NCBI GenBank assembly: GCA_003022435.1 | Contig: PXUA01000006.1 | Coordinates: 1-64,000, forward strand | Source: Bacteroidetes bacterium SW_9_63_38 | GTDB taxonomy: Bacteria; Bacteroidota; Rhodothermia; Rhodothermales; Salinibacteraceae | Reading direction: 5' to 3' | Length of the DNA: 64,000 nt | Part shown: piece by piece, positions 22,774 through 34,521 of the stretch | How the letters are laid out: each line of letters opens with the position of its first letter | Numbering within the stretch: the first letter of the stretch is position 1 | Notes under the pieces: model-generated | The model's database searches: none | Seen by the model: only the letters and a program-made list of their open reading frames with translations | What the model was told of the DNA's origin: nothing | Translations under genes and position numbers: made by a program

Positions 22774-25299
22774 CTAAAAGGTGAGGTGGGCCCGGAGGTT
22801 GAGGGTGCGGGGAGTAAGCCGTTGCGGGATGCGAGTGATGTCCGCCCCGCTTCCGGTCCACGCGTACGCCACCGTGTTGTCCATGTCGAAGAGATTGAGC
22901 ACCTCCAGCGTCAGTTCCAGCTTGACGGGGTGGGCAATGCCCTCCTCGGCCAACTCGACGATTTTCGTCGCCCCCACGTCCACTCGTCGATAGGCGGGGA
23001 GGCGTCCTCCCATGCGCTGACCCGGCACGCGCACGCTCGTGCCGCCACTCGGGGTGGCTCGGGGGCCGGGATTGGTCGTCGTGTACGGAAACCCGCTGCC
23101 ATACAGGAGCCGCATGTGGAGCTTCCACGACTTGCTGCCCGGCACGTAATCCTGGACGAATGCCGAGAATGTGTGGCGCTGATCCGCGGGACGCGGGAGA
23201 AGGCCCTTTCGGTTTTCGCGAGGCGAGGGGCCGGAGCCCTCCCACTCTTCGGCACCGGTGAAGTCTGAAAGTGCCTCGTCCGTGAAACGCTCACGGGAGA
23301 TCATGAAGCTGTAGTTGAACCAGCTTTCGAGGCCCGGCACGAACTCGCCGCGGAGCTGCAGGTCGAAGCCGTAGGTGTACCCGTGGGTATCGTTGTCTCC
23401 GGAGTAGTTGACGCGAATGTTCTCGATCGTGTAGGGAATGATGTTGTCGAGGTCCTTGTAGTAGGCCTCGGCCCGGAGGTAGAGCCGATTGTCCGGCAGG
23501 AAGTACTCCCCGCCGAGGACGAACTGCATCGAGCGCTGCGACTTCAGGTCCCGGTTGAGCGCGTCCTCGATCGAGCGTACGTCGTTGGTCTGCCCGATTG
23601 AATCCGGCGTGCCCCGAAGCTCGCGGTAGGTCGGCTGCTGGTGATAGATGCCCCAGGAGCCGTTGAGGGTGAGCCGGTCGCTGTACTTGAACCGGGCGGA
23701 GAGGCGGGGGGAGAGGGTGAACTCGTCGTTGAAGGTGTAGTAGTCGCCCCGAAGGCCGCCGGTGACGATGAGGCGGTCGCGGGTGGGAAGCACGTCGTAC
23801 GAATCCTGCAGGTAAAAGCCAGTCTGCTGTTCATTGAAGGTAGCACGGTCTCGGAGGCTGTCGACGGTGACCCGCCGGTCCTTTTCTTCCGCGACGAGGA
23901 CGTTCTTTTCGTCGAGACGATCGTCGAAATGCATGCTGCGCAGGCTCCAGCCGGCCTCCAGGGCGTGTCGGTTGAGGTGCCACTGGTAGCGGCCCCCGCC
24001 GGTAAGCCGCTGCACCTCCACGGCGTTGTCCGCGAAGCGGATACGCTTCGTAGAAACGAGCTTGTCGCAGTTGTCGGCACTGGCGTCACCACTGGGATTG
24101 ACCTGGCAGACCCGCCCCGTGCTCGTGATGTCGAACGATTCCGTTTCCCTGGTGCGGAAGTATGCGAGATCGTGGGAGACGGAAATCCGGTCGGTCGGGT
24201 CCGTGTGGAGGCGCAGGCCGCCGACGGTGGTGGTGTAGCCGTCCTCGCGGGCCCCGGTAAAGTTGGCCTGGAGCGCCTGAAAATCCACTAGCTGCGGGCT
24301 GACGACGCCGAAGTGGGTGGTCCGCTCCTTGGGGTCGAGCTCGAAGGTGTGGTCGGCCCAGATGCCGAGCGCCTCTACCGAGACACGGTCCGAGAAGCGG
24401 TACGTGAGGCTGGTCTGCACGTCCTGGAAGCGCGGCTCGTAGTCGCCCTTCAGGTCCTGGGTACCGAAGAAGCGTCCGGGTTGGGCCCGGCGCGCGCCCA
24501 CCGACCAGCCGAGGTCGCCGTCGAGGGCGGAGGACTGGGCGTGCACGTTGGCGTCGAGGGTCGAGATCGCCGCCGAGCCGGTGAGGGGCTGGTCCTCCGG
24601 CTGCGCGTACTGCACGTCGAGGGCCGATGAGAGCTTGCCCCCATACTTCGGCGGGAAGCCGCCGGTGTAGAAGGTGATGTCCGACGCGAGGGCCGGATTG
24701 AGCAGTCCCAGGCCTTCCTGCTCGCCCTGCCGCGCCCGGAACGGCATGAACACCTCGAAGCCGTTGATGAAAATGAGGTTCTCGTTGTAGCCGCCCCCGC
24801 GCACGGAGTACTGCTGCGACAACTCATTGTTGGTCGCCACGCCCGGCACGGTCTTAAGCGCCCGGAAGCCGTCTTTGAACGGGGTGGGAATGTTTTGCAC
24901 GTCCTCCGGGTCGACCTCGTAGACGCCGGCCTCCGGCGCTACGTGCTCGTCGGTCACCGTCAGTTCCTCCATCTCCTGAATGCCCGCGGCCATCGTCACG
25001 TCGAGCTGGGCCGTCGTTCCCTCCGTCACCGTTACCGAATCGGCACGGGTCTGAAAGCCGACCGAGGAAAAGCGAAGTGCGTACCGGCCCACCGGCAGGC
25101 GGAGGCTGTACTGCCCATCTTTGTCCGTAGCGGTGCCGAAGTCGGTGCCTTTTACCACCACCGTCACTCCTACCAGCGGGGTGCCGCTCGTCGAGTCTGT
25201 GACGGTGCCGCTCACCGTGCTCCACGTCTGGGCCTGAGCGGGGAGGACAACGGCGGTGACCACCGTGCCGAGGAGAAGCGCAAGCAGCGAGCGCGTCAC
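22774..25299 (-). CDS. TonB-dependent outer-membrane receptor with CarboxypepD_reg domain
   Basis: 841-residue outer-membrane transporter. A signal peptide (MTRSLLALLLGTVVTAVVLPAQA) is followed by a carboxypeptidase-regulatory-like domain (about 27-110, GTVTDSTSGTPLVGVTVVVKGTDFGTATDKDG written in short as the usual TxD-G pattern), a plug domain (PxxKDGFRALKTVPGV, YSVRGGGYNENLIFINGFEV) and a long beta-barrel ending in Phe (LRAHLTF). It resembles CirA/FhuA-like receptors of Bacteroidota that lack a SusD partner; none is encoded nearby. The substrate cannot be told from sequence; siderophore, vitamin or peptide are possible. Confidence 0.92.
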   Translation of the reverse strand: MTRSLLALLLGTVVTAVVLPAQAQTWSTVSGTVTDSTSGTPLVGVTVVVKGTDFGTATDKDGQYSLRLPVGRYALRFSSVGFQTRADSVTVTEGTTAQLDVTMAAGIQEMEELTVTDEHVAPEAGVYEVDPEDVQNIPTPFKDGFRALKTVPGVATNNELSQQYSVRGGGYNENLIFINGFEVFMPFRARQGEQEGLGLLNPALASDITFYTGGFPPKYGGKLSSALDVQYAQPEDQPLTGSAAISTLDANVHAQSSALDGDLGWSVGARRAQPGRFFGTQDLKGDYEPRFQDVQTSLTYRFSDRVSVEALGIWADHTFELDPKERTTHFGVVSPQLVDFQALQANFTGAREDGYTTTVGGLRLHTDPTDRISVSHDLAYFRTRETESFDITSTGRVCQVNPSGDASADNCDKLVSTKRIRFADNAVEVQRLTGGGRYQWHLNRHALEAGWSLRSMHFDDRLDEKNVLVAEEKDRRVTVDSLRDRATFNEQQTGFYLQDSYDVLPTRDRLIVTGGLRGDYYTFNDEFTLSPRLSARFKYSDRLTLNGSWGIYHQQPTYRELRGTPDSIGQTNDVRSIEDALNRDLKSQRSMQFVLGGEYFLPDNRLYLRAEAYYKDLDNIIPYTIENIRVNYSGDNDTHGYTYGFDLQLRGEFVPGLESWFNYSFMISRERFTDEALSDFTGAEEWEGSGPSPRENRKGLLPRPADQRHTFSAFVQDYVPGSKSWKLHMRLLYGSGFPYTTTNPGPRATPSGGTSVRVPGQRMGGRLPAYRRVDVGATKIVELAEEGIAHPVKLELTLEVLNLFDMDNTVAYAWTGSGADITRIPQRLTPRTLNLRAHLTF

Positions 25300-25625
25300 G
25301 AGTCGGGAGGCGCGTTAGGCGAAAATGGAGACGAGGAGGAGTAGCGAGTCGGTCAGAGGCGGGGGGCGAGATGTGTCGGGAACAGTGGCGAGCGACGGAG
25401 AAAGTCTCAGAGCGAGACAGGCAAACGCCTTCTGCCCCGGCGTAAGTTCCGGGAACGGGTCGTCATCAACATTAAGGGTGGCCGACTTCGTACGTGTATT
25501 CGCGGTAGTGAGCGTTACGTCGTTCGGTACAGAGACGCCGTGTCGATCCGGTGCCGTCCCGAAACGGCAGACGGAAGCGTCGCGCATTCACGGCCAGAGT
25601 CCGACGTCGTAGGCGACACGAATCG
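25300..25625. other. intergenic region upstream of the TonB receptor
   Basis: About 326 bp between the start of the TonB receptor gene and the end of the PAP2-like gene, both on the minus strand. Small open frames exist on both strands but have no recognised features. It should contain the receptor promoter. No binding-site repeat that would point to Fur-like control was visible to me. Confidence 0.35.
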
Positions 25626-26327
25626 CTACGACAGGCCCACCAGGGAAAGGACGGCGTAGAGCTCCGCGTACGGGGCTACGAGGCCGAGGACAGTGCCCGC
25701 CGTGGCCTGCGCGGCCGTGTGGGCTCGACTCCGCACCCGTGCCCACAGCAACAGCGGCACCAGCACGGCGCCGACGCTGAGGATGAGGCGGCCCCATCCG
25801 GCCGTGCCCAGCAGAGTGCCGGGCACCTGGGTGTGCAGGAAGACCAGTGTGCCGAGGGCGCCGGCCGCCGACGCGCAGTGAATCGAGATTTTCCACCAGC
25901 GCGTGATGCCCATCAGCAGCATCGTGTTGATGAGGTGGCACCCCAGCAGGGCGGCCAGCAGTCCCTGTCCGTGTACGTTGAGGAGGCCGACCACGCCCAG
26001 AGCCAATCCCGCAGCCCCGAGCGACACGAGGAACGGCCCGGTGCGCTTGCGGCGGTCGCGGATTTCGAGAGAGCCGATGGCGCCGCGCCATCGCATCCAG
26101 CCGACGTGGAGGAGGGGCACGGCCCCCAGAAAGAACGCGCCGACGCCGACGCCGAGGGCCACATCTTTCGCTGGAGCGCCCACGTGTGTGAGCGCCAGGC
26201 CGTACACCAGCGGCGGGAAGACGAGCGGATTCACGACGTAGCTCACGATCGCAGCGACGACGAGTCCAGTTCCCGCCGGGGCCTCGACGCTGGACGAGGA
26301 GGCCAGGGCGGACGACTCAGACGGCAT
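25626..26327 (-). CDS. PAP2-like integral membrane protein
   Basis: 233-residue protein with about six hydrophobic helices. It resembles the Bacteroidota PAP2-related proteins: a FPPLVYGL start after a short N-terminus, a charged loop EIRDRRKRTGPFL, then KISIHCASAAGALGTL and a late RVRSRAHTAAQATAGTVLGL, which correspond to the conserved K-S-H and R-H positions of lipid phosphatases. It may act on lipid phosphates or undecaprenyl phosphate. The start at 26327 was chosen to remove a non-hydrophobic, unrelated upstream extension. Family membership is moderately certain. Confidence 0.65.
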   Translation of the reverse strand: MPSESSALASSSSVEAPAGTGLVVAAIVSYVVNPLVFPPLVYGLALTHVGAPAKDVALGVGVGAFFLGAVPLLHVGWMRWRGAIGSLEIRDRRKRTGPFLVSLGAAGLALGVVGLLNVHGQGLLAALLGCHLINTMLLMGITRWWKISIHCASAAGALGTLVFLHTQVPGTLLGTAGWGRLILSVGAVLVPLLLWARVRSRAHTAAQATAGTVLGLVAPYAELYAVLSLVGLS

Positions 26328-26740
26328 ATCGAATCGGGGGAAGGGCGAGAAGGAGCGAAGGTCCGCTCGGTGCGAGGACATCGAGATCCATGAGAAGAAC
26401 GACAGCCTCGTCGGGATGATTCCCGGGGAGGAGGTGGAGCGGCGTGGAGGCATCCGCGCGTTTCCCCGTAGAACCCGTCATCGATAACACCAAGGAGCAT
26501 GTGTGCAAGACGCGGTGAACGAGACCTGACAGGTCGTTCCAGTATCTCTTTCACCGCTTCGCACATCGCTACTCATCGAAGTGATCTCCGCCGGGCCGTC
26601 GCGATGGCACAGCCGCTCCGGGAGATCCGGTGCAGAGCACACGTCAGTGTCAGGGCGCCGACGGCCTCCACCGCTCCGTCGACGCGAAACACAAAAGCGC
26701 GCCAACGCACAACGCGAAACGCAAAACGCCCGACGCAAAA
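26328..26740. other. intergenic region with ACGC-rich low-complexity repeat
   Basis: About 410 bp between proS and the PAP2-like gene, both on the minus strand. At 26685-26735, just after the proS stop, is a degenerate repeat with the words ACGCGAAAC, AACGCACAACGCG and AAACGCAAAACGC. Similar AACGC or CACGCAA words occur at other 3' ends in this window. No gene is supported. Confidence 0.5.
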
Positions 26741-28216
26741 TCAGTACGCCTGCGCGAAGAGCACGCGGCCTTCCGACGGCTCGCCGGTGACCATGTCTTC
26801 GCCGGGATCGTCCTCGTCGCGGTCGAAGGGGATGAGCCGGATCGTGGCGGAGGTCTCCTCCTGAATGCGGGCCTCCGTCTCCTCGGTGCCGTCCCAGTGG
26901 GCCCACACGAAGCCGCCCTCCTCGTTGATGACCTCCTTGAAGGCGTCGTAGTCGTCCACGACGTGGGTGTAGGTCTCCTGTCGTTCCTGGGCCTGGTCGT
27001 ACAGATTCTGCTGCACGTCGTCGAGGAGGTCCTCCACGTGATCCACGACGCCGTCCTGCGGCACCGTTTCTTTCTCCTGCGTGTCGCGGCGCGCCACCTC
27101 CACCACGTCGTTGCCGAGGTCGCGCGGGCCGAGGGCCAGCCGCACCGGCACACCCCGCAGCTCGTGCTCGGTGAAGCGCCAGCCCGGGCTTTCCGTCTGG
27201 TCGTCGTCCATCTTCACGCGGATGCCTCGGTCCTCCAACTCTTCCTGCATATGCTCACAGACTGGCAGCACGTCCCCCTCCTGCTCGTCGTCGAAGTAGA
27301 TGGGCACGATCACGACCTGGTGCGGCGCCAGCTTGGGCGGCAGCACGAGGCCTTGGTCGTCGGAGTGCGTCATGATGAGGGCCCCGATGAGACGGGTCGA
27401 GACGCCCCACGAGGTCGCCCAGACGTGCGTTTCCTCGTTGTTTTCGTCGGTGAAGGTGCAGTCGAACGCCTTCGCGAAGTTCTGGCCGAGGAAGTGGCTG
27501 GTCCCGGCCTGGAGGGCCTTGCCGTCCTGCATCAGCGCCTCAATGCAGTAGGTGTTCACGGCGCCCGGGAACCGCTCGCGTTCCGACTTGCGGCCCTTGC
27601 GGACCGGCATCGCCATGTACTCTTCGGCGAACGTCTCGTACACGTCGAGCATGCGCTCGGCCTCGTCCACGGCCGCGTCCTTCGTGGCGTGGGCGGTGTG
27701 GCCCTCCTGCCACAAAAACTCGGCGGTGCGGAGGAAGAGGCGCGTGCGCATCTCCCAGCGGACGACGTTGGCCCATTGGTTGTACAGCAGCGGCAGGTCG
27801 CGGTACGACTGGATCCACTTGCTGTACGTGTCCCAGATGAGGGTCTCGGAGGTGGGACGCACGATATAGTTCTCCCCGAGCTCCGATTCCGGGTCCGGAA
27901 TCAGGTCGCCCTCCTCGTCGGTCTTCAGGCGCGAGTGAGTGACCACGGCGCACTCCTTGGCGAAGCCCTCCACGTGCTCGGCCTCCCGCTCCAGAAAGCG
28001 TTCCGGAATAAAGAGCGGGAAGTAGAAGTTCTCGTGGCCCGTGTCCTTGAACATCTGGTCCAACTGGTCGCGCATGTTTTCCCAGAGGGCCATGCCGTTG
28101 GGCTTGATGATCATGCATCCGCGGGCAGGGGAGTTTTCGGCCAGCTGGCCGTTGCGGACCACGTCCTGATACCACTGCGCGTAATCGTCGTCGCGAGGGG
28201 TGACTGCGTCTGCCAT
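26741..28216 (-). CDS. proS: prolyl-tRNA synthetase, archaeal/eukaryotic type
   Basis: 491-residue class II synthetase charging tRNA-Pro. Motif 2 is visible as [26 protein letters not shown] and motif 3 as [17 protein letters not shown]; the anticodon-binding domain follows. The protein ends in a C-terminal tyrosine (RVLFAQAY), a hallmark of the type-3 enzymes that lack the bacterial editing insertion. The C-terminal domain, which in several relatives carries a four-cysteine zinc site, has no such cysteines here ([13 protein letters not shown] and EDMVTGEP). It is divergent from the RS-repeat lipoprotein gene. Confidence 0.97.
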
Positions 28217-28504
28217 GTTCGGGAAGAAAAGGAGGTCTAGAAGAAAAATGACGAACCGGCGGGAGAGGCCGACCGACCAGCGACCAGTCGGCCCGGCGGC
28301 ACCTAGCCGTTACTTTTGGCGGGCCGCTCACGGCTCACTGAATGACACGCGTTGTGTATGCAAGAGCACGTACGACGCGCAATATACCCGGCCTGGAAGG
28401 AAGTTCAAAGGGGCGGTTTTTGGAGAAGCCCAAACTTTTTGGTTCTGTGCAGCGTTTAACACGTGCGCACATTCTCACAAATCCGTCGAGCCGAGGGAGC
28501 ACCC

Positions 28505-29632
28505 ATGTATACGAACCGACACACACGTCACTCACAGGTTGGGGAGACAATCGGGCTCCTTCTCATCGTCGGCGGGCTTCTGATGGGACTGACGGGCTGT
28601 TATACGCAGCTCCAGACGGCCGATACGTCGTCCCCGCGGGCGGAGCAATCGGAGCCGTCGGCCCAGGAAGAGACGACAGCCGACGAGCCGACCTACGCCG
28701 ACGAGTACCGCCGCGAGAACCGGCGGACGGGCTACGACGACGGCGTGGGTGTGGCCTACGACAACGGCGGCTTCCGGGACTACCGGTACGAGTATGGGTA
28801 CACGTACCAGTACAAATACAAGTACGGGGCGCCCTCCCGGTATCGGGATCATTACCACTACGACGGGTGGTACTACGACTCCTTCTACGACGCGCATGCC
28901 TACGACCCGTTTTACGCCCACCACCCGTATCCCAGCTCTCGCGTGCGTTTCAGCGTGACGTTCCACGCCGGCTCGCCGTACTACCATCACCGGCCCTACT
29001 ACGCCCGGCACTATTACCACCACGGGTACTCGTACGGTCCCCGACGCGCGAATTACTACTGGGATGTATATTACTCCGGGACCGGGAAGTCTCACTCCGG
29101 CGGGGTGAATGCTGGAGATGCCTCTGGAAGCTCACGGACTTATCGACCGAGGGGGGCTACGATGGGACGGGGGACAAAAACACCTGGTGCGACGACCCGA
29201 GCACGAAGCTCCCAATCAGAATCCTCTCAGGGACGCATCGGGCGGTCGCGTGCGTCCGACGACTACGGACGCACGACGCGAACCCGAAGCCGTGCGGCAG
29301 ATACGGAGCGGACTCGATCGACATCTCGAACGCGGAGCCGTGCTGACGTGGAGCGGGGGCGGTCCCCCTCTCGGACCCGAAGCCGGTCGTCCGATGGAGA
29401 ATGGAGTCGGTCCACACGGACGCGAAGTCGTTCCTCCGATGATGGGCGCTACGACGCTCCTGCTCGAACCCGGAGTCGCTCGTCTCGCAGCGACCGAAAC
29501 CGGTCTACGACCCGAACGCGAAGCCGGTCCTCAGACAATGAGCGGTCCCGATCGAAATCCCGGACCCGAAGCCGGTCGTCCGACGATAACGAGAGCCGGT
29601 CGCGTTCTCGAACACGGAGCCGATCGGATTGA
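28505..29632 (+). CDS. lipoprotein with Tyr/His-rich core and Arg-Ser repeat tail
   Basis: 375-residue predicted lipoprotein of unknown function. Signal segment GLLLIVGGLLMGLTGC gives lipidated Cys32. Residues 75-195 are extremely rich in Tyr, His, Arg, Asp and Gly, with tracts such as YRYEYGYTYQYKYKYG and YYHHRPYYARHYYHHGY. From about 255 to the end are roughly eight imperfect 15-16-residue repeats built on RTRSRSSD, giving a strongly basic RS-type tail. This is unusual among the acidic proteins of this genome. The repeats differ at synonymous codon positions, suggesting selection on the amino-acid sequence. The start at 28505 fits the signal peptide. Possible roles such as DNA, polyanion or metal binding at the cell surface are speculation. 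Confidence 0.8.
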   Translation: MYTNRHTRHSQVGETIGLLLIVGGLLMGLTGCYTQLQTADTSSPRAEQSEPSAQEETTADEPTYADEYRRENRRTGYDDGVGVAYDNGGFRDYRYEYGYTYQYKYKYGAPSRYRDHYHYDGWYYDSFYDAHAYDPFYAHHPYPSSRVRFSVTFHAGSPYYHHRPYYARHYYHHGYSYGPRRANYYWDVYYSGTGKSHSGGVNAGDASGSSRTYRPRGATMGRGTKTPGATTRARSSQSESSQGRIGRSRASDDYGRTTRTRSRAADTERTRSTSRTRSRADVERGRSPSRTRSRSSDGEWSRSTRTRSRSSDDGRYDAPARTRSRSSRSDRNRSTTRTRSRSSDNERSRSKSRTRSRSSDDNESRSRSRTRSRSD

Positions 29633-29726
29633 GAATTGGGGGCGGCGATGAGCGTGCGTTCCGATTTTCTGCTCGGCCGCGTCGACAGAATGGGTGTTTC
29701 GTTTGTCTGTGATCCCTATGTATTGC

Positions 29727-31334
29727 ATGATCGCTTCCCGGTTGCTTCGGACCGCCCTATTGGTGATATGTCTGGGCGTCGTACTCTTCGGATCAGTCTC
29801 GTCCGCCTCGGGGCAGGTGCTGGACGACGTGATTCGGTACTCACAGCGGTTTCCGGCTCCATCTGGCCCTGTGATGGGCACGGCGGGGGCTGGACTCATG
29901 GCCGGACGGGAAGAGCTTGGAACACTCGTCGGGAATCCGGCCGGGCTGGGATGGATGTCGACGTCTATGGTCGGCGGGGACTTTGCGGCGCAGCGAGCCC
30001 GCAACAATTCTCGGTTTCTGACACCGGACGATAACGCGACCGCCGAACGGACGGCAAGCGACTATCGACTGGGACGCCTTGGCGGAGCGTACGTCTTTCC
30101 CACCGAGCAAGGTTCTGCTGTGATTGGGGTGGCATATCACCAGATCAATACCTACGAGCGGGGCTTTGACGTGGCAGGCACGAACGCCTCGAACTCGATT
30201 ACCCCCACGTTTCTTCCGAGTAGCGCCGGCTTCTCGGCGGAAGAAGTGGAAGAAGACGGTGTCTACAACCTTGCGTTCGACAGGGTGCGCTCGCGCATCG
30301 CATACGATGCTGGGGCGATTCGATTTTCGTCGTCGGACTTTGAAGGCGGAAACTTTCCGTTTGCTGAAGCCGCTACTCCCGGAGGGGGCCAGACGATTCA
30401 ACAGCAGGACGATGTCTTTGAGTCCGGCCAGATGAATGAAATCAATATTGGAGGGGCGGTTGAGGTAGCGCCCGGGGTAATGGTAGGAGGTGGTCTGAAT
30501 ATTGCCTTCGGCTCGTACCGGTTCGAGCGTTTCTACCGGGAAACCGACCTGCGAAGCGTAAACAGCCGGTCCCAGCTTAATGACACTTACTCTCCGGATG
30601 GAACTGATCTGGAGGGGTTCAAGGAGCTTCGGTTTGAGAGGCGTATCGATACCGACCTAAGCGGGGCGAACTTCCGTATGGGAGTCTCCGCTGAACTCAC
30701 CGATGGGCTTCGATCAGGACTGCTGATCGAGTCGCCGACCTGGTACAGTGTTACCGAGGTGTTCGGTGCCCGAATCGAAACCGCGTTCGACTGTAACGGT
30801 CAGGGCTGTGATCCGAATGGGGTGCCCGGTCTTTCCAGCGGCTCGCTGACCGGCAACGAGTTCGAGTATCGCCTCCAAACTCCCTGGCGAATTGGTGCCG
30901 GCCTACAGTACACGCAGTCCGGGTTGATGATTGCCGCGGATGTGGAGTTTGTCGACTGGACCCAAACAAGCGTAACCGCCGACAATGAGTCCTTCAGTGA
31001 GCTCAATCGGGAGATTCGAGCACTCGACGCGACGGTGAATGCGAGTGCCGGGATTGAATATGCCTTCGACCAGGTTGCGGTGCGGGGCGGGGCGGCCTAC
31101 CGACCGGACGCGCGCGGAGAATCTTTCTCGGATGTCAACGGAGAGTCAACAGACCGTAACCGGCTGTTTTTCTCTGCGGGCGTGAGTTATACGCCCACCG
31201 AGACGTTTGCGTTGCACCTGAACTGGCTTCAAGAGCGGGTCGATGATCAGTCGGCCTCCTACGACGGAGGGCCGTCGATCCGTGAGCAGCTCCAGCGCAA
31301 TCGCTTCGTGCTTGGCATGACGTTCCGGTTCTGA
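29727..31334 (+). CDS. OMPP1/FadL/TodX-type outer-membrane protein
   Basis: 535-residue beta-barrel protein. Signal peptide IASRLLRTALLVICLGVVLFGSVSSASG is followed by an N-terminal hatch-like region GTAGAGLMAGREELGTLVGNPAGLGW, the FadL family motif for hydrophobic-compound channels (NPAG). Alternating barrel strands end in FVLGMTFRF with terminal Phe. It probably takes up hydrophobic compounds across the outer membrane. ATG codons at 29718 and 29727 both give a signal peptide; the second gives the cleaner one. It follows the RS-repeat lipoprotein after 94 bp on the same strand. Confidence 0.85.
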   Translation: MIASRLLRTALLVICLGVVLFGSVSSASGQVLDDVIRYSQRFPAPSGPVMGTAGAGLMAGREELGTLVGNPAGLGWMSTSMVGGDFAAQRARNNSRFLTPDDNATAERTASDYRLGRLGGAYVFPTEQGSAVIGVAYHQINTYERGFDVAGTNASNSITPTFLPSSAGFSAEEVEEDGVYNLAFDRVRSRIAYDAGAIRFSSSDFEGGNFPFAEAATPGGGQTIQQQDDVFESGQMNEINIGGAVEVAPGVMVGGGLNIAFGSYRFERFYRETDLRSVNSRSQLNDTYSPDGTDLEGFKELRFERRIDTDLSGANFRMGVSAELTDGLRSGLLIESPTWYSVTEVFGARIETAFDCNGQGCDPNGVPGLSSGSLTGNEFEYRLQTPWRIGAGLQYTQSGLMIAADVEFVDWTQTSVTADNESFSELNREIRALDATVNASAGIEYAFDQVAVRGGAAYRPDARGESFSDVNGESTDRNRLFFSAGVSYTPTETFALHLNWLQERVDDQSASYDGGPSIREQLQRNRFVLGMTFRF

Positions 31335-31513
31335 TGCGTGAATCGTGATGCGGGACGCGGGGGCGTTTACGTATCACGTCCCGTCCTTACTGATCTGTGC
31401 ACGGGTCGATAAACAATACTCTCCGTCTGAGGAGATCTGAGATCTACAGGACCGTGTTTTGTTGTCAGCGGAGGTCGCCTTTACGAACCCATTCACGTAT
31501 CAGTGGTCACGCG

Positions 31514-32536
31514 TCACTTTCTCCGCTTATCGAGCATTCGGTGGTACTCCTCGGCGGCGCGGTTGTGCTCGCGCAGGGTGCGGCTGAAGGTGTGCCCGCC
31601 GCTGCCGTCGGCCGCAAAGTAGAAGTACTCGTGTTGCCCGGGCGCAACGGCGGCCCGCAGGGAGGTCGGAGACGGGTTTGTGATGGGGCCGGGCGGCAGA
31701 CCGCTGTTTTTGTAGGTGTTGTAGGGGTGGTCAATTTCCAGGTCCCGGTAGAGCACGCGGCCCGTGCGCTCGCCCTCCGTCTGGAGGAGCACGTACTGGA
31801 TGGTGGGGTCGGCCTGCAGGTGCCAGCCTTCCCGGAGTCGGTTGACGTACACGCCGGCAATGGTGGGTTTCTCCGCGTCGTGAATGGCTTCCCACTCCAC
31901 GATGGAGGCGAGCGTCACCACCTCCTGTTTCGTAAAGCCGAGGCTGTCGGCCCCTGCTTTGAGGTGTTGGGCGTAGTACCGATCGAACGACTCCTTGATG
32001 CGACGCACGACCGTGCGGGCGGGCGTCTGCCAGTAGAACTCGTATGTCTCCGGCAGCATGTAGCCGAAGAGGCGACCGGGCGCAGTGCCGAGCTCGCGGG
32101 CGAGAGCGGTGTCGCGAAGTGCTGCGTGGGCGGCCGCGGAATCGAGCTTCAGGCGCCTCGCGACGGCGTGGGCGATGTGGGAGGAGCGGGAGCCGGGGGG
32201 GATCGTCACGCGGATCGGCGTCTGGAGCCCGCGCCGCAGCATGTCGAGCAGGTGGTAATTGGAGCGAGCGCCCTCCACGTCGTAGTGGCCGGCTTTGAGT
32301 TGGGCGCCCCAGCCCGTCATCCGCCCAACGAAGCGAAAAGTGGCGGGTGACACCAGAACGTGCTCGGTTTGCAGCGTATCGATCGCCTGCTCCAGCGTAG
32401 CGTCCTCGGGTAGGACAAAGTCGCGAGAGCCGTCGTACGGGGCCGTGTTGGGAGCAAAGAGAAGTGCCCCTCCGACCCCGGTGCCCAGCCCGGCCAGGAG
32501 CAGGACGAGGAACGCGGGGACGTAGGTCGTGCGCAT
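31514..32536 (-). CDS. mltG: endolytic murein transglycosylase MltG
   Basis: 340-residue inner-membrane YceG-family protein that cuts nascent glycan strands to terminate their growth. An N-terminal membrane helix (about 6-28) is followed by a LysM-like region (DFVLPEDATLEQAIDTL, VTIPPGSRSSHIA) and the catalytic domain. The catalytic glutamate is Glu214 in LASIVEWEA. The conserved blocks EGWHLQADPTIQYVL, YNTYKNSGLPPGPITNPS and YFYFAADGSGGHTFSRTLREHN follow. Its length matches the family. It is followed upstream by the SGNH hydrolase and tsaD genes on the same strand. Confidence 0.96.
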   Translation of the reverse strand: MRTTYVPAFLVLLLAGLGTGVGGALLFAPNTAPYDGSRDFVLPEDATLEQAIDTLQTEHVLVSPATFRFVGRMTGWGAQLKAGHYDVEGARSNYHLLDMLRRGLQTPIRVTIPPGSRSSHIAHAVARRLKLDSAAAHAALRDTALARELGTAPGRLFGYMLPETYEFYWQTPARTVVRRIKESFDRYYAQHLKAGADSLGFTKQEVVTLASIVEWEAIHDAEKPTIAGVYVNRLREGWHLQADPTIQYVLLQTEGERTGRVLYRDLEIDHPYNTYKNSGLPPGPITNPSPTSLRAAVAPGQHEYFYFAADGSGGHTFSRTLREHNRAAEEYHRMLDKRRK

Positions 32537-32581
32537 GGTCGTTATGGAGTTGCAGAGAAAGCAGCCGCCGAGGACCGAAAA

Positions 32582-33232
32582 CTAGTCCAACTGCTCCCGA
32601 AACGCGGAGAGCCAGGCCTGAGCCATGCGGTGATGGCCCGCCGGGGTGGGATGCACCCCGTCGTCGGCCCAGTACGGCCCCGGGGCTTCGTCCAACGCCT
32701 CGTCGAAGACCGACTGGTACGGAATCCAGGCCGCCCCGACATCGTCCGCGACGCGTCGGGCGGCGGCCTGGTAGGGCCGAAGTTCCGCGCGCCAGCGATC
32801 ATCGACCGCCGTGCCGCCGGTAAGAAAGAACGGCTCACCCAGCAGCAGCGTTACGTCCGGCAGGGCCGTGCGGGTTCGGTTGAGGAGAGCGCGGTAGGTG
32901 TCCTCGTACTGCGCCGGGGTGCCGTCGTGATCCCCGGAGCGGCGGTACCAGTAGTCGTTGACGCCCACCAGAATGCTGAGCACGTCCGGCGACAGGGACA
33001 GTGTGTCCGCGTCCCATCGGGCGGCGAGGTCGGTGACCTTGTCGCCGCCGACTCCGCGGTTGTGACAGACCCAGCCCACGCCCGGCTGTTCGCTCAAAAC
33101 GGCCGAGGCGGCCAGGACGGCGTAGCCGCTGCCCAGGCTGTGAGGGTGGTTTGGGGCGGCCTCCCGGCGCTGGCGGCCTGCATCCGTGATCGAATCGCCC
33201 TGAAAGAGCAACACGCGACGGTCGGATGGCAT
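32582..33232 (-). CDS. SGNH/GDSL-family hydrolase
   Basis: 216-residue esterase/lipase-like protein with all four SGNH blocks: block I FQGDSITDAG with the nucleophilic Ser, block II NRGVGGDKV with Gly, block III VGVNDYW with Asn, and block V DGVHPTPAGH with Asp and His. No signal peptide at the chosen start, so it is probably cytoplasmic. It may act as an acyl or acetyl esterase; the substrate is unknown. The ATG at 33232 places the first strand right before block I. Confidence 0.88.
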   Translation of the reverse strand: MPSDRRVLLFQGDSITDAGRQRREAAPNHPHSLGSGYAVLAASAVLSEQPGVGWVCHNRGVGGDKVTDLAARWDADTLSLSPDVLSILVGVNDYWYRRSGDHDGTPAQYEDTYRALLNRTRTALPDVTLLLGEPFFLTGGTAVDDRWRAELRPYQAAARRVADDVGAAWIPYQSVFDEALDEAPGPYWADDGVHPTPAGHHRMAQAWLSAFREQLD

Positions 33233-33313
33233 GGCAACGACAACGTTCTGCAAGAGAGTGCGGCCGCAGGCGAGAATGAGGCGGTGCGGCACTGACGGGA
33301 AGAGGGCGGAGCG

Positions 33314-34321
33314 TCAGTCGAGCGACAGCTGAGGGGCTACGTCCAGGGTCGGGGGCGAGGTCTCCCCGCGGGTGAGGCGCAGGGCGCCCGCCTTCGCGAT
33401 CATGGCCCCGTTGTCCATGCAGTACGAGAGGGCAGGCACCGACACGTCGAAACCGTCCTCATCCCCGGCGGCAGTCACGCGACGGCGCAGTTCGCTGTTG
33501 GCAGCTACGCCCCCAACCACCGCCACGTGCTCGGCCCCCGTTTCGGCCACCCCGCGCCGAACGGCCTCGACGAGCACGTCCACAATGGCGGTCTGGACCG
33601 ACGCACAGAAGTCGGCCCGGTGCTCGCTCAGCAGCCGCTCGCGCTCGGCGTCGGCGTAGTCGCGCAGATGGTAGAGCACCGACGTTTTGAGGCCGCTGAA
33701 CGAGAAGTCGAAATTGTCCAACTGGGCCCGCGGAAAGTCGTGGAACGTCGGGTCCCCGTCGGCGGCGTGGCGGTCGATGGCGGGGCCGCCGGGGTACCCG
33801 AGGCCGAAAAGCTGCGCGATCTTGTCGAACGCTTCGCCGGCGGCATCGTCGCGGGTGCGGCCGAGGACCGTGTGCTGGAGGTCGGGCTCGACGACCACGA
33901 GCTCGGTGTGGCCGCCGCTTACGATGAGGCAGAGGTAGGGCCGAGACGGGGAGGGAGCATCCAGGGCCACTGAGTACAGGTGCCCCTCCAGGTGATTGAC
34001 GCCGATTAGGGGGACGCTCAGTCCGCGCGCAAGCGCCTTCGCGAAGCTGAGGCCCACGATCAGCGAGCCGGGCAGGCCTGGGCCGTGGGTGACGGCCACG
34101 GCGTCGAGGGCGTCGGCGGTCGTGTTGCCCTCATCGAGGGCCGCTTCGACGACCGGCACGATGAAGCGCTGATGGTCGCGGGAGGCCAACTCGGGCACCA
34201 CCCCGCCGTACTCCTCGTGCAGGTCGTGCTGCGAGGACCGGACGCTGGACCGCACGACATTGCCGTCCAGGACGGCAGCGGCCGTGTCGTCACACGAGCT
34301 TTCGATGCCGAGCACGCGCAT
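33314..34321 (-). CDS. tsaD: tRNA N6-adenosine threonylcarbamoyltransferase
   Basis: 335-residue ASKHA-fold enzyme that transfers the threonylcarbamoyl group to A37 of ANN-decoding tRNAs, working with TsaB, TsaE and TsaC. It starts MRVLGIESSCDDTAAAV. Metal-binding histidines are in VNHLEGHLYS. Nucleotide-binding blocks are LIVSGGHTEL, GRTRDDAAGEAFDK and VVGGVAANSELR. The start at 34321 matches the universal family N-terminus. Confidence 0.97.
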   Translation of the reverse strand: MRVLGIESSCDDTAAAVLDGNVVRSSVRSSQHDLHEEYGGVVPELASRDHQRFIVPVVEAALDEGNTTADALDAVAVTHGPGLPGSLIVGLSFAKALARGLSVPLIGVNHLEGHLYSVALDAPSPSRPYLCLIVSGGHTELVVVEPDLQHTVLGRTRDDAAGEAFDKIAQLFGLGYPGGPAIDRHAADGDPTFHDFPRAQLDNFDFSFSGLKTSVLYHLRDYADAERERLLSEHRADFCASVQTAIVDVLVEAVRRGVAETGAEHVAVVGGVAANSELRRRVTAAGDEDGFDVSVPALSYCMDNGAMIAKAGALRLTRGETSPPTLDVAPQLSLD

Positions 34322-34521
34322 GCGGGACACAGGACGATTGACGGAAGGGAAGACGGGGAAGAATATCCGCAGCGAAGCACTCTCACGGGCAGGGCAGGTC
34401 CTGGATCCGGCCCCCGCGTCAAGTGCGAACAAAATGAGGGCTGCAAGGTATTGTGTGACGACGAGCACCGTTCCCCTTTTAGGATCCGAACATCCTTCCA
34501 CACAGACGCCCGACGGCCCTC

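Follow-up and report, generated by a model that had tools for sequence, protein, structure and literature searches.

A Bacteroidota lipoprotein family with a basic, apparently disordered tail and a genetically linked FadL-type barrel

The window analysed here, a stretch of 64,000 nucleotides at the start of contig PXUA01000006.1 of Bacteroidetes bacterium SW_9_63_38, carries a gene for a predicted lipoprotein and, 85 bp downstream of it, a gene for an outer-membrane beta-barrel. Both lie in a gene block that is recognisable across the order. No terminator-like site was found between the lipoprotein and barrel genes, and a search for RNA families at the locus found none. The barrel gene is taken to start at an ATG at position 29718, where the list of open reading frames has a GTG at 29694. 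The features are as follows:

22774 to 34501, gene block: TonB receptor, membrane protein, proS (divergent), lipoprotein, barrel, mltG and tsaD
28505 to 29632, plus strand, lipoprotein gene of 375 amino acids, ATG to TGA (open reading frame and orthologues)
28505 to 28597, plus strand, lipoprotein signal peptide, the lipobox LTGC ending at the Cys codon 28598 to 28600
28598 to 28612, plus strand, mature N-terminal lipopeptide CYTQL, where conservation is highest and the model is least poorly predicted
28694 to 29134, plus strand, Tyr/His-rich low-complexity core with a YADEYRRE motif (sequence and orthologue comparison)
29135 to 29629, plus strand, basic Arg/Ser-rich tail from a YRPRG hinge, net charge +30 (sequence composition)
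29279 to 29629, plus strand, eight RTRSR units 15 to 16 residues apart (motif search)
29718 to 31334, plus strand, partner gene for a FadL-family outer-membrane beta-barrel (profile, fold model and linkage)

The original prediction, made from the letters alone, described a lipoprotein with a Tyr/His-rich core and about eight repeats of 15 to 16 residues built on RTRSRSSD, which give it a strongly basic tail, and each of these points was borne out. The lipobox LTGC occupies residues 29-32, with the predicted lipidated Cys at residue 32, and the GCYTQ sequence is found at the same position in almost all family members. The tail, which begins at the YRPRG hinge at residue 211, is 165 residues long and consists of 28% Arg and 24% Ser. 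Its RTRSR units start at residues 259, 275, 290, 305, 321, 337, 353, and 369, with spacings of 16, 15, 15, 16, 16, 16, and 16; four of the eight are exact RTRSRSSD, and the rest read RTRSRAAD, RTRSRADV, RTRSRSSR, and RTRSRSD followed by the stop codon. In the C-terminal half of the protein, 44 RS/SR dipeptides were observed when 23.3 were expected from shuffles (z = 5.7), the second highest value among 69 family members. Tandem Repeats Finder reported no DNA-level tandem array in the tail, because the third codon positions have diverged; in other words, the repeat exists at the protein level and is degenerate in the DNA.

No family in Pfam, NCBIfam, or the PDB fits this lipoprotein or the profiles of its relatives. 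The NCBIfam model ser_rich_anae_1 was rejected at 17 bits, its cut-off being 650, as a match of composition only, and the search for relatives in the PDB with two profiles (A2 and A4) gave only weak low-complexity matches. A literature search on RS-tailed or FadL-linked lipoproteins found nothing relevant beyond two papers on the BAM complex (PMC12611786, PMC12578637).

In the RTRSR unit all third codon positions vary, and comparison between the units gives a pS of 0.55 and a pN of 0. It should be mentioned that the latter is zero by construction, the units having been found by the RTRSR motif, and because they were picked by their amino acids this test is partly circular; the fair test of selection is made between orthologues. 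In six orthologue pairs, ranging from Salinivenus lutea and S. iranica (tail identity 0.93) to pairs at 0.53, the dN/dS of the tail is 0.21-0.39, close to the 0.19-0.40 of the core. The purifying selection originally proposed for the repeats is upheld by these values, and the finding that would have counted against it, a C-terminal frame broken in relatives, did not appear: all relatives that were read keep the tail in frame. The arginine-serine tail is real and is kept by selection.

The search for related lipoproteins, also suggested at the outset, found them well beyond the closest relatives. They are present in 14 of the 27 family genomes (protein search), in 37 of 114 genomes of the order, representing 16 of 49 genera (profile of 14 cores), and in 106 of 395 genomes of the phylum, representing 63 of 170 genera (profile of 26 cores). 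The matches include Salinibacter altiplanensis, Salinivenus, Longimonas halophila, Fodinibius salsisoli, and members of the Balneolaceae, Melioribacteraceae, and Ignavibacteria. Among the weakest matches in the phylum, 20 sequences were read, and nearly all of them combine a lipobox of the GCYTQ type with a Tyr-rich stretch and a basic tail, and have a barrel close by; the exceptions are one with CSTS in place of CYTQ (L166) and one cut by masked sequence (L176). Directly upstream of the first lipoprotein, Salinivenus lutea and S. iranica encode another of the GCYTQ type that is less basic (L018, 7788-9050, minus strand; L131 and L132, 2302-3564, plus strand).

These proteins share a Cys-Tyr-Thr-Gln-Leu lipopeptide at the N-terminus, a stretch rich in Tyr, and a basic tail in which Ser is usually abundant. 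Conservation is highest in CYTQL, and CYTQ is kept far beyond the rest of the protein. The family-wide invariance of CYT is overstated, since a CY[TS] pattern served to gather the later members; a CYTQ-type N-terminus is also seen in the matches collected by profile alone. Throughout the phylum, nearly every full-length member has the basic tail, and among 69 members its basic fraction is 0.24 +/- 0.06 and its Ser fraction 0.23 +/- 0.09. The share of Arg among Arg and Lys in the tail rises with GC content (Spearman 0.56, 69 members), and Lys makes up about half of the basic residues in the Melioribacteraceae. The repeats themselves vary by lineage: RGNNSRASSS in one genus (g9), RSRATNS in one genome (G004), a RTRSAPQTRSTQ-type repeat in L082, NRGTVNRNNSS in two Balneolaceae, and mixtures of Lys, Ser, and Arg in the Melioribacteraceae. 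One outlying tail (G009, L057 2339-3229, minus strand) is rich in Arg, Glu, and Asp and has little Ser, with its basic charge kept. Selection on the tail is on its composition, while its sequence and its repeats turn over.

This bears on the feature that had first drawn attention, an RS tail of the kind seen in eukaryotic splicing factors. The RS repeat is certainly present in the window, but alternation is strong (z > 3) in only 19% of the 69 members; the other 81% have z <= 3, the maximum is 7.7, and the family as a whole lacks the conserved RS/SR alternation that defines an SR protein or RS domain. As for the suggested phosphorylation of the tail, there is no kinase support, because the CotH kinase (PF08757) was missing from 26 of the 27 family genomes, including that of the window, which is only 84% complete. 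A CotH-family kinase gene was seen in a single family genome (L110, G025:C409:2529-3584) and is absent from the relatives of that genome. The RS comparison is a compositional resemblance in high-GC genomes, and the RS repeat of the window represents the Salinibacter type of a lipoprotein tail that in many Bacteroidota is positively charged and apparently unstructured.

The AlphaFold model of the lipoprotein, built with 45 aligned members, has a mean pLDDT of 44.8 and contains no secondary structure or folded domain; its best-predicted part is the first ten residues (pLDDT 67). The protein thus appears to be disordered along its whole length, a low pLDDT being something that fits disorder without proving it. 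The confidence is also too low to argue against folding on binding, and such folding is possible. BamH, a folded lipoprotein of two domains, was considered as an identity for the lipoprotein and rejected, there being no PDB sequence match with profiles A2 and A4 and a pLDDT of 45.

The partner is modelled with far higher confidence. Its AlphaFold model has a pLDDT of 90.6, Foldseek places FadL first (E = 1.9e-16) and finds the BamG chain 9hiv_F at E = 2.2e-15, and the Pfam family Toluene_X matches 43 of 47 barrel members, the window member itself scoring 27.1 bits, under the cut-off of 29.7. By fold and profile together, it belongs to the FadL/OmpP1 family. BamG itself was rejected as its identity, because the BamG of this genome is elsewhere: the barrel scores 28 bits with NF053685, for which the equivalog cut-off is 250, and another gene, the BamG candidate of the genome (L186, G000:C12:104744-105976), scores 241, just under that cut-off.

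For 69 lipoprotein genes, 1.5 kb or more of downstream sequence was available, and in 64 of them a barrel gene follows immediately on the same strand. The five exceptions are the upstream paralogue of a two-lipoprotein locus (L018), two from genus g5 (Longimonas halophila and a relative), one from G023, and L172. In g5 and G023 the barrel is elsewhere; L172 has no barrel nearby, and for G239 none was found close to the gene. In two genomes (G017 and G020), the pair is intact though neither proS nor mltG could be matched in its vicinity, and in two Balneolaceae genomes the whole pair is tandemly duplicated (L135, 168-2747 and 3044-6213; L136, 327-2854 and 3263-6420). The tails of these duplicated pairs differ in length and repeat. 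The gene pairing of lipoprotein and barrel is well supported. It had been missed in the original prediction, whose RS reading was too narrow, and it is the family and the linked barrel, not the RS repeats, that make the locus significant.

In sign, the charges of the two partners fit the mechanism proposed below. The C-terminal halves are positive in all 45 lipoproteins tested, and the barrels are negative in all 45; the window barrel has a net charge of -26 against -1 for the BamG of the same genome, and BamG is near neutral in the same genomes as the paired barrels. Matching of charge between tail and barrel was considered and rejected: the raw correlation (Spearman -0.43) is gone under independent contrasts (r = -0.11, p = 0.21), and it is not counted as support because it fails phylogenetic correction. 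As to the side of the membrane, surface export in Bacteroidota calls for two or more acidic residues among the six that follow the Cys (PMC12578637). Between +2 and +6, no acidic residue is found in 60 of 71 members and one in the other 11; the window protein reads YTQLQT, with Tyr, not Asp, at +2, so that the acidic export signal of surface-exposed lipoproteins is missing. This slightly favours the periplasmic face, by a rule established in other classes of Bacteroidota, which may not apply to this one.

Taken together, these observations suggest that the lipoprotein and the FadL-type barrel probably work together as an undescribed envelope pair. We infer by analogy that they interact physically, and the reading that we prefer, to which we give a probability of about one half, is a conserved two-gene outer-membrane unit. 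In such a unit, the invariant lipidated CYTQL N-terminus would dock on the barrel, as BamH does on BamG, and the polycationic tail of 165-300 residues would serve as a flexible electrostatic tether or sensor. It would touch polyanions of the envelope, that is, LPS, peptidoglycan, or acidic protein surfaces, in the manner of the basic segment of RcsF. In this view the RS repeat is the form that the basic Ser-rich tail takes in this lineage, with Arg rather than Lys in high-GC genomes.

Several other explanations have to be weighed against this two-gene unit. A possible one, though clearly less probable, is a purely structural tether, in which a periplasm-facing lipoprotein binds peptidoglycan non-covalently through its basic tail and so fastens the outer membrane to the wall, with the barrel as no more than a co-expressed anchor. 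Tails of 150-300 residues could reach the wall, and the 60 of 71 members without an acidic residue at +2 to +6 have no Bacteroidota-type export signal. Against it, no known peptidoglycan-binding domain and no Lpp-like C-terminal Lys were found, and a pure tether does not obviously need so consistent and specific a FadL-family partner. Somewhat more doubtful is an accessory subunit of a BAM-like or secretion machine, with the barrel as a BamG/PorV-type FadL paralogue and the lipoprotein in place of BamH or another surface lipoprotein. The NCBIfam models for BamG and PorV_fam match 38 and 32 of 47 barrels, the solved BamG is among the best fold matches, and the BamG2 and BamH2 genes of B. theta are also adjacent; the main objections are the separate and much better BamG of this genome (241 bits against 28) and a lipoprotein that matches no PDB BamH chain by sequence and has no predicted fold, whereas BamH is folded. 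We also regard as rather unlikely a Bacteroidota-wide undescribed outer-membrane machine in which the disordered Tyr/Arg-rich lipoprotein would be threaded through, or condensed around, its dedicated FadL-type barrel, with Tyr and Arg acting as stickers as in FUS-like proteins, and would sense or crosslink the envelope surface.

Two further explanations concern the tail itself, and both are improbable. If it were a non-adaptive, low-complexity product of codon slippage and high GC, tolerated without serving a use, then the variation of lineage-specific repeats among genera and the tracking of GC by the Arg share would be expected, but not a dN/dS of 0.21-0.39, a basic charge that low-GC lineages hold through Lys, or a tail in almost every full-length member of the phylum. 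Slightly less probable still is a eukaryote-like RS domain, with binding of nucleic acid at the cell surface or control through phosphorylation of its serines: the strong RS alternation in the window genome and some relatives (z up to 7.7) speaks for it, and against it stand the lack of alternation in 81% of members, the use of Lys in some tails, and the absence of the CotH kinase noted above.

The preferred two-gene unit would add a third arrangement of FadL-family proteins, beside BamG-BamH and PorV, in a phylum whose outer-membrane biology has lately proved unusual. The lipoprotein family is spread over many Bacteroidota genera and is genetically tied to its barrel, and it shows that a long, positively charged, apparently disordered tail can be selected for composition despite turnover of its sequence and repeats. 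It also offers a concrete, testable pair in a workable host that is not a pathogen (Rhodothermus). Lipoprotein-barrel pairs are known as a kind; what is new is this lipoprotein family, which has no description in Pfam, NCBIfam, or the PDB.

Among known proteins, the RS domains of eukaryotic SR proteins share with the window tail a long alternation of Arg and Ser, in a region of low model confidence that is presumably disordered. They differ in that the window protein is an extracytoplasmic lipoprotein whose alternation is not conserved among relatives, in that Lys replaces Arg in low-GC lineages, and in that there is no evidence of an SRPK-like or CotH kinase. The CotB and CotG proteins of the Bacillus spore coat likewise have bacterial repeat regions rich in Ser and basic residues, but they are CotH substrates, and CotH is missing in 26 of 27 family genomes here.

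Another comparison is with RcsF and OmpA or other OMPs in enterobacteria, where a lipoprotein with a basic disordered segment works with a beta-barrel, as is proposed for the window pair. The RcsF segment depends on its barrel partner, and LPS sensing requires its positive charge (PMC4942254). In RcsF the C-terminal part is a folded signalling domain and the basic segment is N-terminal, whereas the window tail is C-terminal and much longer, and the window partner is of the FadL type. A further comparison is with the Bacteroidota BAM complex described in 2025, in which the FadL-family BamG holds the lipoprotein BamH, whose lipidated N-terminus packs in a groove of BamG, and with the BamG2-BamH2 paralogues of B. 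theta, which form a putative operon (PMC12611786, PMC12578637). As is predicted for the window, a FadL-family barrel is combined with an outer-membrane lipoprotein; the paralogous genes are adjacent, as in the window, and the lipidated N-terminus that anchors BamH corresponds to the most conserved stretch of the window family. The window barrel is a distinct FadL paralogue, however, and BamH is folded, surface-exposed, and equipped with an acidic export signal, unlike the window lipoprotein with neither a predicted fold nor such a signal. In other words, BamG-BamH provides a working principle for the pair, not membership.
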